Shown here piece by piece: positions 15,605-19,306 of a stretch of DNA of 34,147 nt. Positions within the stretch are counted from its first letter, which is position 1. Every line of letters starts with the position of its first letter. The notes under the pieces were generated by a model that saw only the letters and a program-made list of their open reading frames with translations, ran no database searches and had not been told where the DNA came from. Source of the stretch: Bryobacteraceae bacterium. Lineage in GTDB: Bacteria; Acidobacteriota; Terriglobia; Bryobacterales; Bryobacteraceae. The translations under genes were made by a program, and so were the position numbers. The stretch is taken from positions 69,671 through 103,817 of the forward strand of contig JANWXD010000007.1 of the NCBI GenBank assembly GCA_025055455.1. The letters are read 5' to 3'.

Positions 15605-17215
15605 ATGCCGGCACAGGCTTCGGCCATTCTCTGGGCGCAGTGGCGTTCGTTTTCGAACGCGCTCCGGCGAGGCGTTTCCGGCGCTTGGCTCGCGGCGCTC
15701 GTGGCGGTGGTGATTTGGTACGGGCTGTGGTGCGCCTTGGCTGGCGCTGTGTTCTGGCTGGCCTCGAGGCCTCAGGCGCGCGAGGTGGTGGAACGGGCGC
15801 TGCCGGGCGGGCTCCTGTTCGTCTTCGTGTACTGGCAAGCGGCGCCGTGGCTGGCCGCTTCGCTCGGCGCGGCAGTGGATCTTCGGCGCCTCCGGGTCTA
15901 TCCGATCGCGCGCCGCCAGCTCTTCGGCATCGAGGTGGCGCTGCGCCTGTCGACCTCCGTCGAGATGCTGCTCCTGCTGGCGGGCGCGGCGGCCGGCCTG
16001 GCGTGGAATCCGGCGGGGCACGGCCGTGCGGCGCCGGTGGCGCTGGCAGGGTACGCGACCTTGAACGTTTTCCTTGCCAGCGGCGTGCGGAGTCAGATCG
16101 AACGCTGGCTGGCGCGGACGCGGATCCGCGAAGTGATCGCGCTCGTGTTCATTTTGCTCGCAGCGTTGCCGCAGCTCTTGCTGGTCACGGGTGTGTCGGC
16201 GTCCTTGCGCCGCTGGCTCGTGGTGGAAGCCACAGGCGCGTGGCCCTGGGCTGTGGCGGCGCGACTGGCGTTGGGCGAAGGCCGGACGTGGGATTGGCCG
16301 CTGCTTGCCCTCTGGGTGGCCGGGGCCTGGTGGTTCGGGCGCTGGCAGTTCGAGCGAAGTCTCGAATCCGAGGCCGGGGCCGAGCCGGCGTCCCGAAGAG
16401 ACGCTTCGCGGGGTGCAGTGCCGCGCCTGTGGCGTTTGCCAGGCTGGCTCCTGCGGGATCCTCTAGCCGCGATTGTCGAAAAGGAGTTGCGGTCCCTGGC
16501 GCGCTCGCCGCGCTTTCGGCTGGTGTTCCTCATGGGCTTCACCTTCGGCGTGATCATTTTTCTGCCGTTGATCCTGCGCGCGAGCCGAGCTCCCGGAAGC
16601 GAACCGCTCGGGGCAGCCTATCTGGTGATGGTCGGTGCCTACGCGCTGCTTCTATTGGGGGACGTCGCTTTTTGGAACATCTTCGGATTCGACCGGGCCG
16701 CGGCGCAAGCTTACTTACTGACTCCGACGCCCGTTGCGAAAGTTTTTGTCGGCAAGAACGTGGCGACCGGCGTGTTTGTCGTGCTCGAGATGGCGGCGAT
16801 CACCGCCGTGTGGGCCGTGGCGCGCTTGCCGCTCGAGCTCGCCGCGGTGGCCGAAGCGTTCGCCGTCACCCTGGTGCTGGCGCTGTATTTCATGGCGGGC
16901 GGCAACCTGGCCTCGGCCTATTACCCGCGCGCCGTGCACCCGGAGAAATCCACGGGCGCCAGCTCGCCGCTGCGGGTCCGGCTGCTGCTGATATTTCTCT
17001 ATCCGATTGGCGCCCTTCCGGTGCTGCTGGCCTACGGCGCCCGGTACGCATTCGACAGCCAGGGGGCATTTTGGGCGGTGCTCGCCTTTGCGGCGGCGCT
17101 GGGCGCAGCAGCCTACTGGGCGGCCTTGGATTCCGCGGTGACGCGCCTCGAGCGGCACCGGGACGAATTCCTGGCCGCGCTGACGCAGACCGAGGGACCG
17201 ATCCGCGTGGGGTGA
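15605..17215 (+). CDS. ABC-2-like transporter membrane protein, 536 aa
   Basis: The protein is highly hydrophobic, with roughly a dozen candidate membrane segments, including LAALVAVVIWYGLWCALAGA near the N-terminus and VIALVFILLAALPQLLLVTG near residue 180. Others are YLVMVGAYALLLLGDVAFW and the C-terminal VLAFAAALGAAAYWAALD. A central soluble loop (about 235-300) carries the coupling-type motif DPLAAIVEKELRSLARSPRFR seen in ABC-2 permeases. The chosen ATG at 15605 follows the ATPase stop by four bases; the frame is open to 15404 only as shadow of the ATPase. Substrate unknown. It ends 13 bp before the REP hairpins flanking the RAYT gene. Confidence 0.88.
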   Translation: MPAQASAILWAQWRSFSNALRRGVSGAWLAALVAVVIWYGLWCALAGAVFWLASRPQAREVVERALPGGLLFVFVYWQAAPWLAASLGAAVDLRRLRVYPIARRQLFGIEVALRLSTSVEMLLLLAGAAAGLAWNPAGHGRAAPVALAGYATLNVFLASGVRSQIERWLARTRIREVIALVFILLAALPQLLLVTGVSASLRRWLVVEATGAWPWAVAARLALGEGRTWDWPLLALWVAGAWWFGRWQFERSLESEAGAEPASRRDASRGAVPRLWRLPGWLLRDPLAAIVEKELRSLARSPRFRLVFLMGFTFGVIIFLPLILRASRAPGSEPLGAAYLVMVGAYALLLLGDVAFWNIFGFDRAAAQAYLLTPTPVAKVFVGKNVATGVFVVLEMAAITAVWAVARLPLELAAVAEAFAVTLVLALYFMAGGNLASAYYPRAVHPEKSTGASSPLRVRLLLIFLYPIGALPVLLAYGARYAFDSQGAFWAVLAFAAALGAAAYWAALDSAVTRLERHRDEFLAALTQTEGPIRVG

Positions 17216-17228
17216 GCGCAGTGCACTG

Positions 17229-17268
17229 TGGGGCGGCCTTCAGGCCGCGCCGGGCTTCAGCCCGGCTC
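17229..17268 (+). repeat. Left REP-type double hairpin of the RAYT unit (inverted copy 1)
   Basis: Two hairpins stand side by side: GCGGCC-TTCA-GGCCGC and GCCGGGC-TTCA-GCCCGGC, preceded by TGGG. The 40 bases are repeated in inverted orientation at 17884-17923 with differences only in the first loop (TTCA against TAAC). The RAYT stop codon lies inside this first loop. Such palindromes are the presumed substrates of REP-associated tyrosine transposases. Confidence 0.85.
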
Positions 17269-17818
17269 TTACCGAAAACCTGCGCGAGGCGCTCGACCAA
17301 GGGTAATCCTCCGGGGCTCCCGCCAAGCCGGCCCGTACTGGATTCATCTCGATGTATGCCCGGATCCTTTCAAATTCCTCCTGATCCCGCACCCAGTGGT
17401 CGTAACTCTCCTCCTGCCAGAACGGTCGCCCCGTGAGTCCCAGGAGCTGATTCGCCCGCCGCGCTGTGCCGCCTTTGAGATGGCCCAGCAGCTTCGCCAG
17501 AGGCGCCTTCGGCGTGACGAGTATGTGCACGTGATTCGGCATGACCACGAAGGCGTGCAACGCGAACTGTTGCCAGCGGTCCTGAGCTTCGATGAGGGCG
17601 TCCACGACTAACGCAGCGATCTCGGAACGGGCCAGGTGGCGGGGACCCGTGCGGGCATCATCCAGCAGCCGGTCCATGGCGACGAAGGCTTGGCCACCAC
17701 TCAAGCGGCCTGCGGGGAAGCAACGGTGAGGAGGTAAGCTCCCATGCAGGCGCCAAGTCACGAACAGGGGTCGGCCAGTGGGTTGGCAGTGGGGCAAGCG
17801 ACGACGGTACCAGGACAC
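17240..17818 (-). mobile_element. REP-associated tyrosine transposase (RAYT, Y1/HUH family)
   Basis: This 192-residue HUH nuclease is the kind thought to process and spread REP palindromes through single-strand cleavage. The metal-binding HUH pair is in MPNHVHILV (near residue 95), and the catalytic tyrosine is probably the Y in RIRAYIEMNPVRAGL, followed by the family signature DYPWSSA. The start is GTG at 17816-17818 (MSWYRRRLPHC); no better start is visible. The final residues GLKPGAA are encoded by the left REP hairpins, and the TGA stop falls in a hairpin loop, so gene and repeat are physically fused. It sits alone between an exporter gene and ugd, and its codon and base use resembles its surroundings, so it is not a recent foreign insertion by composition. 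Confidence 0.92.
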
Positions 17819-17883
17819 GATAGCCAGGATAGCGTCTCAGCGCGCATTTGGGTACAACGGCCCAAACATTGCGTGGCGCTCGG

Positions 17884-17923
17884 GAGCCGGGCTGAAGCCC
17901 GGCGCGGCCGTTAGGCCGCCCCA
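17884..17923 (-). repeat. Right REP-type double hairpin of the RAYT unit (inverted copy 2)
   Basis: This is the reverse complement of the copy at 17229-17268, apart from the first loop. Again it forms GCCGGGC-TGAA-GCCCGGC next to a GCGGCC/GGCCGC stem. Together the two copies bracket a 695-bp unit with outward symmetry, as in a minimal mobile unit. It ends ten bases before the candidate -10 of ugd, so it may also insulate or influence that promoter. Confidence 0.85.
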
Positions 17924-17933
17924 CTCGTCCTGC

Positions 17934-17939
17934 TACGAT
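17934..17939 (+). promoter_or_regulatory. Candidate -10 (TACGAT) of ugd with an almost absent leader
   Basis: CTACGATA lies eight bases before the ugd ATG. If it is the -10, transcription would start at or within a few bases of the ATG, giving a leaderless messenger; indeed no Shine-Dalgarno is present. The same CTACGATA occurs at 23687-23694 and the related CTATGATA at 31655-31662, both also before genes. No -35 is evident because the upstream DNA is the REP hairpin. Confidence 0.4.
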
Positions 17940-17947
17940 AGCGTCCA

Positions 17948-19306
17948 ATGAAGACAGCGATTCTCGGCACGGGCTATGTGGGACTGACGACCGGCGTGTG
18001 CCTGGCCTACCTGGGCCACGAAGTCACCTGCGTGGACACGGAAGAGGAGAAGATCCTCGGGTTGCAACGGGGCGAATGTCCGATCTACGAGCCCTGGCTC
18101 CAAGAGCTGCTGGAACTGTCGCGGCCCCGGCTGCGGTTCACTACCCGCTGCGAAGAGGCAGTGCCTGGCGCGGCGGTGGTGATCATCGCCGTGGGCACGC
18201 CCCCGCGTGCCGACGGCGGACCGGATTTGAACTACGTCCGCCAAGCGGCGGAGGCCGTGGGGGCGAACTTGGAAGGGGAATTCACGGTCGTCGTCAACAA
18301 GTCCACGGTGCCGATCGGCAGCGGCAACTGGGTGGGGGCGTTGGTACGTGAAGCCTACGCCGCGCGCCGCGGGCGCAAGCCCCCGAACTGCTTCGCCGTC
18401 GCCTCCAATCCCGAATTTCTGCGCGAAGGATCCGCACTTTACGACACGCTCTACCCGGATCGGGTCGTGGTGGGCGCCGACGAAACCCGGGCGCTCGAGG
18501 TCCTCTATTCGCTCTACCGGCCGATCCTGGAGCAGAGCTTCACGCCGCCGACGTTTCTGCCGCGCCCGGAGGGCTTGGGCGCCGTGCCGCTGATCGCCAC
18601 CGACCTGGCCTCGGCCGAGCTCATCAAGTACGCCGCCAACGCGTTTCTGGCCCTCAAGATCAGCTTCATCAACGAAATCGCCCAGCTGGCCGAAAAAGTC
18701 GGCGCCGACATCACGCAGGTGGCCAAAGGCATCGGCCTGGACGCACGCATCGGCACGCGGTTTCTCCAGGCCGGGATCGGCTGGGGCGGATCGTGCTTCG
18801 GCAAGGACACGGCGGCCCTCATCGCCACTGCGCGCGAGTACAACCTCGCCATGCCGATCGTGGCGGCGGCGCGCGAGGTGAACTACCGGCAGCGCGAGCG
18901 TGTGGTCGAAAAGCTGCTGGCCGAGCTCAAAATTCTCAAAGGCCGCACCATAGCCCTCTTCGGGCTGGCGTTCAAACCCAACACGGATGACCTCAGGGAC
19001 GCGCCGGCGCTGGACATCGCGCGCCGGCTCGTAGAACGGGGCGCCGCGGTGCGCGCCCATGACCCGGTGGCGCTGGCCCGCGCCCGCCGCGAGTTTCCCG
19101 ACCTGGGCATCGTTTACTGCGACACGGCCCAAGAGGCGGCGGCGGAGGCCGACGCGGTGGTGCTGGTGACCGAGTGGCGCGACTACCGGAGCCTGGATTG
19201 GGACGAGATCGCCCGGGCCATGCGCACGCCCTTGGTGCTCGACGGCCGCCACTTTCTGGATCGCGCGCGCCTCGAGCAAGCCGGGCTGAGGTGCGTGGGG
19301 GTGTAA
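17948..19306 (+). CDS. ugd: UDP-glucose 6-dehydrogenase
   Basis: The enzyme oxidises UDP-glucose twice with NAD+ to UDP-glucuronate, a precursor for exopolysaccharides and lipid decorations. The 452-residue protein opens with the NAD fold MKTAILGTGYVGLTTGVCLA. It has VNKSTVPIGS, ASNPEFLREGSA, the conserved lysine K227 in ELIKYAANAFLALKISFINE, the catalytic cysteine C283 in GWGGSCFGKD and the C-terminal UDP-binding region ALFGLAFKPNTDDLRDAPAL. It is of the single-domain-set bacterial type. The start has no Shine-Dalgarno but a -10-like box just upstream. No glycosyltransferase or polysaccharide cluster is adjacent, so the product's use is not shown here. Confidence 0.96.
   Translation: MKTAILGTGYVGLTTGVCLAYLGHEVTCVDTEEEKILGLQRGECPIYEPWLQELLELSRPRLRFTTRCEEAVPGAAVVIIAVGTPPRADGGPDLNYVRQAAEAVGANLEGEFTVVVNKSTVPIGSGNWVGALVREAYAARRGRKPPNCFAVASNPEFLREGSALYDTLYPDRVVVGADETRALEVLYSLYRPILEQSFTPPTFLPRPEGLGAVPLIATDLASAELIKYAANAFLALKISFINEIAQLAEKVGADITQVAKGIGLDARIGTRFLQAGIGWGGSCFGKDTAALIATAREYNLAMPIVAAAREVNYRQRERVVEKLLAELKILKGRTIALFGLAFKPNTDDLRDAPALDIARRLVERGAAVRAHDPVALARARREFPDLGIVYCDTAQEAAAEADAVVLVTEWRDYRSLDWDEIARAMRTPLVLDGRHFLDRARLEQAGLRCVGV

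Follow-up and report, generated by a model that had tools for sequence, protein, structure and literature searches.

A stretch of 34,147 nt from Bryobacteraceae bacterium GCA_025055455.1 (contig JANWXD010000007.1, 69,671-103,817), called the window in the following, contains a compact unit of 697 nt (17228..17924, no strand assigned) in which the gene of a REP-associated tyrosine transposase (RAYT) is enclosed by two inverted REPs. A RAYT with inverted cognate REPs is a known kind of element; unusual are the REP of two hairpins, the covarying stems in the relatives, and the signs of relocation in the Bryobacterales. We favor, with moderate confidence, the reading of the window unit as REPtron-type, consisting of a REP-associated tyrosine transposase and its two cognate inverted end REPs, a reading that includes the mechanism outlined below and an occasional transfer of whole units in the Bryobacterales. 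The host genome, labelled G000, is a draft of 3.95 Mb in 145 contigs with a completeness of 98.75%.

Anatomy of the REP-RAYT-REP unit

The unit has a permease-like gene on one side, whose stop ends at 17215, and a ugd-like gene on the other, which starts at 17948; the names of these and all other neighboring genes (peptidase, LarE, ppdK, mreB, efflux, RND) come from reading the ORF translations, without a family search. A repeat search and the letters place the left REP, which is downstream of the RAYT gene, at 17228..17268 on the plus strand, and the right REP, inverted and upstream of the gene, at 17884..17924 on the minus strand. The two arms found by the repeat search are 41 nt each, inverted, 93% complementary, alike at 38 of 41 positions and 615 nt apart. 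Each of them, read inwards, consists of GTGGG, hairpin 1, hairpin 2 and TC. The left foot GTGG (17228-17231) is followed by hairpin 1 (stem 17233-17238/17243-17248, loop 17239-17242) and hairpin 2 (stem 17249-17255/17260-17266, loop 17256-17259), and the right foot GTGG (17924-17921) by hairpin 1 (stem 17919-17914/17909-17904, loop 17913-17910) and hairpin 2 (stem 17903-17897/17892-17886). The stems are GCGGCC/GGCCGC in hairpin 1 and GCCGGGC/GCCCGGC in hairpin 2, and in the same inward direction the loops of hairpins 1 and 2 have the letters TTCA and TTCA in the left REP and TAAC and TTCA in the right one. The first-pass annotation had described near-identical inverted repeats of two adjacent hairpins around a transposase gene, with differences confined to one loop. 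Both statements stand, as the complementarity of the arms lies far above chance scores and all 3 left-right differences fall in the loop of hairpin 1; the repeat length had to be mended from 40 bp to 41 nt and the unit extended by one base at each end, which makes it run from 17228 to 17924. A chance repeat was considered and is ruled out by the flank alignment, in which the two flanks of the window unit reach an inverted local score of 33.5 and the window upstream flank scores at most 18.0 against the downstream flanks of the other 95 loci compared below, and by the frequency of a strict double hairpin in shuffled ends, which is 0.5% when the foot is kept.

The RAYT gene (17240..17818, minus strand) encodes 192 aa from a GTG. 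Its product passes the Pfam model PF01797 (Y1_Tnp; E 3e-9, 37.5 bits at a cut-off of 23), which is its only Pfam domain, as well as the NCBI model NF047646 REP_Tyr_transpos for REP-associated tyrosine transposases (86.6 bits at a cut-off of 80), and it aligns to TnpA-REP 4er8_A with an E of 7.4e-6. The HUH motif is found at H96-V-H98 (PNHVH), and the alignment identifies Y155 (YIEMNPVRAG) as the catalytic tyrosine, with the protein ending 37 residues past it. The NPVRAG after this tyrosine matches the RAYT signature given in Nunvar 2010 (PMC2817692), a tyrosine and then NP(L/V)(R/K)xG. Quentin 2018 (PMC6006769) names W, Q, E/D, H and R as readers of the GTAG foot, and W134, Q135, D140, H141 and R144, which align with W, Q, E, H and R of 4er8_A, are candidates for this role, matched to the published residues by pattern and without residue numbers. 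With the IS200/IS605 elements the unit has in common the Y1 transposase family, hairpin ends and a weak NF033573 match of 28.4 bits. That it is a standard insertion sequence of this kind with subterminal hairpins is hardly credible, as the NF033573 match does not reach the 55 bits of its cut-off, whereas the match to the RAYT model exceeds the one set for that model and NPVRAG agrees with the RAYT signature, and as the end architecture differs, with inverted GTRG-footed repeats of which a solo copy occurs elsewhere.

The last 7 codons of the gene, GLKPGAA, together with the TGA lie wholly within the left REP (17240..17263, minus strand). The minus frame ends as ...VRAGLKPGAA*, whereby it crosses hairpin 2 as G-L-K-P-G, adds A-A, and reaches the TGA (17242-17240) in the loop of hairpin 1; letters and ORF thus confirm that the final codons are built from the left repeat and that the stop lies in a hairpin loop, as had been proposed. 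A REP can therefore comprise two hairpins and at the same time form the 3' end of a coding region, in which case the letters available to the protein tail are constrained by the palindrome. The further claim that the repeat dictates the end of the protein is true for the window unit, and in the clade this is one of several outcomes. Because the REP starts directly after the conserved core of the protein, at about codon 180, the tail and often the stop are read from the REP or the DNA just outside. Stop positions were surveyed in the 55 units that have inverted ends with GTRG at both (see below), and in 19 of them the stop falls within the terminal 44 nt, 8 with a distance of 12-13 nt to the outer end, like the window unit, 7 with one of 32-33 nt (5 in hairpin 2) and 4 elsewhere. 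The frame runs through the REP and stops at most 23 nt outside in flanking DNA in 15 further units, and the stop is earlier or farther out in the remaining 21, the feet having been chosen by a nearest-GTRG rule that is wrong for a few units (L044, L121, L135, L140) and shifts their stop offsets. These varied stop places cause the letters and the length of the tail to vary. One could keep the preferred explanation and yet assume that the REP-coded C-terminus is selected for protein function, rather than a by-product of compactness; GLKP-type tails do recur (window, L034, L044, L046), but we give this assumption little credit in view of the units whose stop falls in hairpin 2 or in flanking DNA, or whose frame crosses the entire REP. 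An overlap of end repeats with the 3' end of such genes is mentioned in a legend of Di Nocera 2013 (PMC3733652), which also describes GTAG REPs that supply the stop codon to flanking ORFs. At L124 (G029:C394), the RAYT frame leaves the REP into a simple repeat, which results in a tail of TNTG/STG units.

Related units and the covariation of their stems

Relatives of the RAYT were found in 78 of 121 genomes, own included, and 36 of the 56 named contigs with a relative of the protein are titled as Acidobacteriota, 21 of these as of the Bryobacter or Solibacter type. From 126 loci taken (L026-L151), 11 duplicates and 19 partial or short-flanked loci were dropped, which leaves 96; 19 of these are less than 45% identical to the window protein and come mostly from other phyla. 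At 55 of the 96 loci, own included, the ends are inverted and both have a GTRG foot, by the criterion of an inverted-end score of at least 19 and a GTRG at each end; 7 of these 55 units are below 45% identity. The other 41, which include L027, L028 and L052, fail this criterion; of these, L027 is situated where its contig begins, and a double hairpin can be read by eye at its downstream end. A double hairpin of 7 bp and 8 bp is found at both ends of 30 of the 55 units and at one end at least of 37, with perfect Watson-Crick stems at both ends in 24 of the 55, as compared to 0.5% of shuffled ends, and several more distant relatives carry a single hairpin. When up to 3 mismatches are allowed, the letters of the window REP are matched in 6 of 121 genomes, G000 among them, and every match outside G000 has at least 2 mismatches. 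Judged from these sequences, the relatives share the architecture of the REP and not its letters. A solo REP at L024:1501-1534 and neighboring positions (G017:C262) combines the hairpin 2 of the window (GCCGGGCTTCAGCCCGGC) with a hairpin 1 of another type, and hairpins may thus be exchanged as modules.

Covariation was scored on 49 double-hairpin ends, which had been picked for pairing and aligned by structure. Standard pairs occupy 98.4% of the cells, compared to 66.4% in shuffled and at most 39.6% in slid controls; two-sided changes are seen in 229 cells as against 60.3 when shuffled, and the covariation score is 0.851 as against 0.223. Two further measures, the number of pairs with a two-sided change (13 vs 12.0 shuffled) and of further pair types (33 vs 31.4), show no excess. 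The suggestion that selection acts on the stems is hence borne out by three of the five measures and not by the other two, and on this evidence the stems appear to be under selection. Left-right differences within 9 units occur at 12 of 63 loop, 8 of 263 stem and 3 of 47 other positions, counts that are biased because only perfect stems of equal geometry were admitted; the 8 stem differences make up 4 compensated pairs.

The type of the REP was compared with a careful RAYT tree of 77 rows, from which the REP-coded tail had been removed (24 of 74 branches starred), and in which 34 rows were labelled with end types assigned by our own rule. On this tree the REP type requires 12 changes, close to the minimum of 10; the shuffled mean is 22.8, and 0 of 200 shuffles were as low. 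The clustering is carried by GGACC, which forms one clade (100/95), and by GCA/CTC and GCCA. The window type TTCA is not a clade; its 4 rows require 3 changes, and 61 of 500 shuffles needed no more. The GGTT type is likewise ungrouped (as low in 59 of 500). A quick tree that retained some REP-coded tail columns gave 11 changes and had 6 of 74 branches starred. The match of REP type to RAYT phylogeny is thus partly shown, namely for three of five types and not for that of the window; a coevolution of RAYT and REP was already reported for Stenotrophomonas in Nunvar 2010 (PMC2817692).

REPs outside the unit and known systems

In G000, a pattern that spans both hairpins was matched, at 3 mismatches or fewer, at 3 places, the flanking pair and one site on contig C52, and the reversed control gave 0. 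The C52 copy is a solo REP that is identical to the left repeat over 41 of 41 nt; the identity ends at the repeat, and the sequence right outside differs. It lies in the spacer of convergent peptidase-like and LarE-like genes, with its foot 2 nt from the stop of the latter, so that the count of double hairpins that had been proposed as a check yields a solo copy in a spacer, and the repeats are not restricted to the unit. A single-hairpin match on contig C51 was rejected, as it reads as coding (DTPGFSPAE, by eye) and comes without the second hairpin. The pattern search returned no REP doublet without the gene in G000, the single solo REP being found instead.

The position of this solo copy beside a stop codon in a convergent spacer, and of the flanking repeats at the gene ends with the left one between convergent genes, would also suit ordinary transcription terminators or mRNA-stabilising repeats that flank a transposase gene by accident. 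We think that this is very unlikely, as a stem followed by a T-run does not occur in 16900-18100, the foot is kept, and the stems are alike left and right within a unit but different between units.

REPs are much more abundant in several relatives. Cognate REPs are many in G035 and G124 (L029-type) and in G064 (L115-type), and in G064 there are 110 match rows for the L115-type, with many places matched by both ends. The covariance model R1 matched in at least 37 of 93 genomes, with at least 68 matches in one; it scored the best 69 or 150 candidates per genome, so its zeros mean little, and since it missed three known G000 copies its counts are lower bounds. Inverted doublets of about 100-155 nt with the feet outside occur in relatives, and the five that were viewed look like REPINs by their sequence. 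G047 and G033 have at least 66 and at least 27 double-hairpin matches, respectively, but no match to the window RAYT; their REPs are possibly orphans or tied to another RAYT.

With the REPtron (Nunvar 2010, PMC2817692; Quentin 2018, PMC6006769) the window unit shares a Y1 HUH protein that passes the RAYT model, two inverted palindromic REPs with a GT[AG]G foot at the gene ends, one of them very near the stop, and a cognate REP elsewhere in the host genome (one solo, 41 nt identical). It differs in that its REP combines a hairpin of about 7 bp with an adjacent one of about 8 bp, in its very low copy number in the window genome (3 found), and in the signs of relocation among its relatives, which those papers report not to have found. 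According to Nunvar 2010, REPs usually exceed 100 copies (abstract) and are highly overrepresented (Discussion). The copy number of 3 in G000 is far below such a REP population, and by this scarcity, two of the three places being the flanking pair, the host departs from the REPtron type; a high REP abundance is a REPtron criterion on which not every paper insists. Quentin 2018 mentions REPs of the form hairpin-bulge-hairpin for subclass 2.2 and, for Solibacter usitatus, about 600 structures that belong to another class.

The TIRtron or TIRYT of Di Nocera 2013 (PMC3733652) is similar in having Acidobacteria among its hosts and inverted terminal repeats, of which, according to a legend, some are "double palindromic" and some overlap the 3' end of the gene. 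Compared by the text description of the TIRs, the window REPs are different in having a GTRG foot, and the window protein of 192 aa is without the C-terminal HTH extension of subclass 2.1. The motif GGGGWSAS, which characterizes the majority of TIRs and not all, is absent from both strands of the window 41-mers (by eye). The REPINs of Bertels and Rainey 2011 (PMC3116915) resemble the inverted REP doublets with outer feet in the relatives; in contrast to them, the REPs here are double hairpins, and no doublet was found in G000. A description of such units in Bryobacterales was not found by full-text searches of the literature, in which the papers listed were screened by title and start of the abstract and few subscription journals were covered.

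Probable relocation of units in relatives

The likely mechanism, which we infer, is modelled on what has been published about TnpA-REP in E. coli and Stenotrophomonas, and this holds for binding, cleavage and transposition as well as for any mobility of the window copy. Each REP is a GTRG foot and then two adjacent hairpins, of which the foot and the first hairpin would be bound by the HUH protein on single-stranded DNA, and Y155 would cut beside the REP. Strand transfer would copy single REPs and inverted, REPIN-like REP doublets, and in the Bryobacterales it may occasionally copy the whole REP-gene-REP unit.

In the literature, RAYTs are portrayed as host-like genes present in single copy, which mobilise REPs and are not mobilised themselves (PMC8266576, PMC6006769, PMC3116915, PMC2817692); Nunvar 2010 (PMC2817692), in which REP-rayt-REP units were defined, reports no signs of IS-like mobility, and a 2021 paper (PMC8266576) reports no evidence of tnpA-REP mobility. 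In agreement with these accounts, the RAYT could be a settled host gene with the same anatomy and the same mobilisation of REPs that never moves as a unit, the scattered sites being due to other horizontal transfer, old insertions or rearrangement. The one Y1 gene in G000, the one location kept in three genera, and the REP copies that far exceed the RAYTs in several relatives would be compatible with such a gene. We nevertheless rate it as rather unlikely, based on the following observations.

Neighbors are shared on both sides in 8 of 4560 locus pairs (two of which are also cross-matching), and any flank similarity is seen in 23 of 4560. Unit boundaries were compared among 33 units that carry a double hairpin at one or both ends, which gave 353 alignable pairs. 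The similarity stops within 5 nt of both feet in 35 pairs, which speaks against a settled gene, and in 10 it continues beyond a foot for over 15 nt; most of the others end inside the unit and are uninformative either way. In all, 318 pairs miss this limit of 5 nt at one foot or both. Further evidence against a settled gene comes from G036, which has two units that are 92% alike on two contigs at different sites and were not found there in comparable congeners; this is the sole dispersed near-identical pair among the 96 loci. The first unit follows about 220 nt after a ppdK-like gene, and the congeners G122 and G123 are similar up to the end of this gene, with no such unit after it. The second lies between mreB-like and efflux-like genes, and G121 keeps both genes in this order on a single contig, with no such unit between them; the spacer has diverged and hence does not qualify as a clean empty site. 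In G122 the genes are split between contigs, and in G123 only the mreB-like gene is among the matches listed; short RAYT-like stretches (65-71% identity) occur elsewhere in G121, G122 and G123 among the best 40 candidates per genome. The two G036 units also agree over 17 nt beyond one of the feet and over about 43 nt beyond the second, and what was copied hence exceeded the interval between the feet. The source of this common flank was not found in the congener stretches; an exception in the flank search is L117 downstream against L273, which scores 14 as compared to at most 12 in 20 shuffles. At L274:7997-8712 (G036:C223), a partial second ppdK-like copy lies a few kb beyond the RAYT unit, a local rearrangement around the insertion.

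Other genomes offer comparable situations. For the G035 unit L029, the congener G124 has both flanks on different contigs and many L029-type REPs, and no RAYT match is among the matches listed for it. G020 contains a tandem RAYT pair, L143/L144 (G020:C159:30610-32217), 94% alike over 643 nt. Short palindromic repeats are located around and between these two genes. One spacer between two RND-type exporter genes carries RAYTs in three genera, which belong to two lineages and two end types: L036 (G045:C749) to the GCCA clade (99/96), L122 (G048:C290) and L124 (G029:C394) to the CTC-loop clade (98/88). Two RAYT lineages in the same spacer are at odds with a settled gene; from their sequences they would fit separate insertions or replacement, and the spacer is possibly an insertion hot spot or a place of replacement. 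Taken together, it is likely that units in the Bryobacterales clade do relocate, although rarely, and the clade looks more IS-like than the published RAYTs. As units stand at many unrelated sites between covarying ends, unit transposition is directly testable in this clade.

The window copy itself was described in the first-pass annotation as a compact self-mobilising REP unit. The REP-RAYT-REP unit is there, its own movement did not find support: the window RAYT is the only Y1_Tnp match in G000, near-identical unit copies at different sites were not found in that genome (the dispersed pair being in G036 and the tandem pair in G020), and with one RAYT and three REPs found there is no sign of activity. 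The comparison of the site between exporter and ugd in relatives, also proposed there, was carried out over the 879-3394 nt that follow the exporter in 40 of the 69 relatives with an exporter match. The adjacency of exporter and ugd was seen in 0 of these 40, so they provide no clean empty site for the window unit; 39 of 40 are without a RAYT match there. The one match after the exporter (L182 in G020) belongs to another supported part (97/94) of the RAYT tree than the window protein, so the place of the RAYT is not fixed among the relatives. Mobility of the window copy, a single copy with no clean empty site, is therefore unproven, and "self-mobilising" would apply to it by extension from its relatives.

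Bertels and Rainey 2011 (PMC3116915), who describe RAYTs as single copy, suggested that REPINs come from an ancestral autonomous element. A tentative extension of our reading, which we regard as possible but doubtful, is that the Bryobacterales hold this postulated autonomous ancestor stage of RAYTs and REPINs, a unit that still transposes foot to foot, with a frame that ends in the end repeat or borrows the stop of the target, and that the window copy would be a recent or nearly silent founder with a single daughter REP. As to possible targets, conserved letters outside the feet are not evident in 66 contexts, in which G is scarce at -1 (6 of 66) and position -5 leans to G or C (52 of 66).
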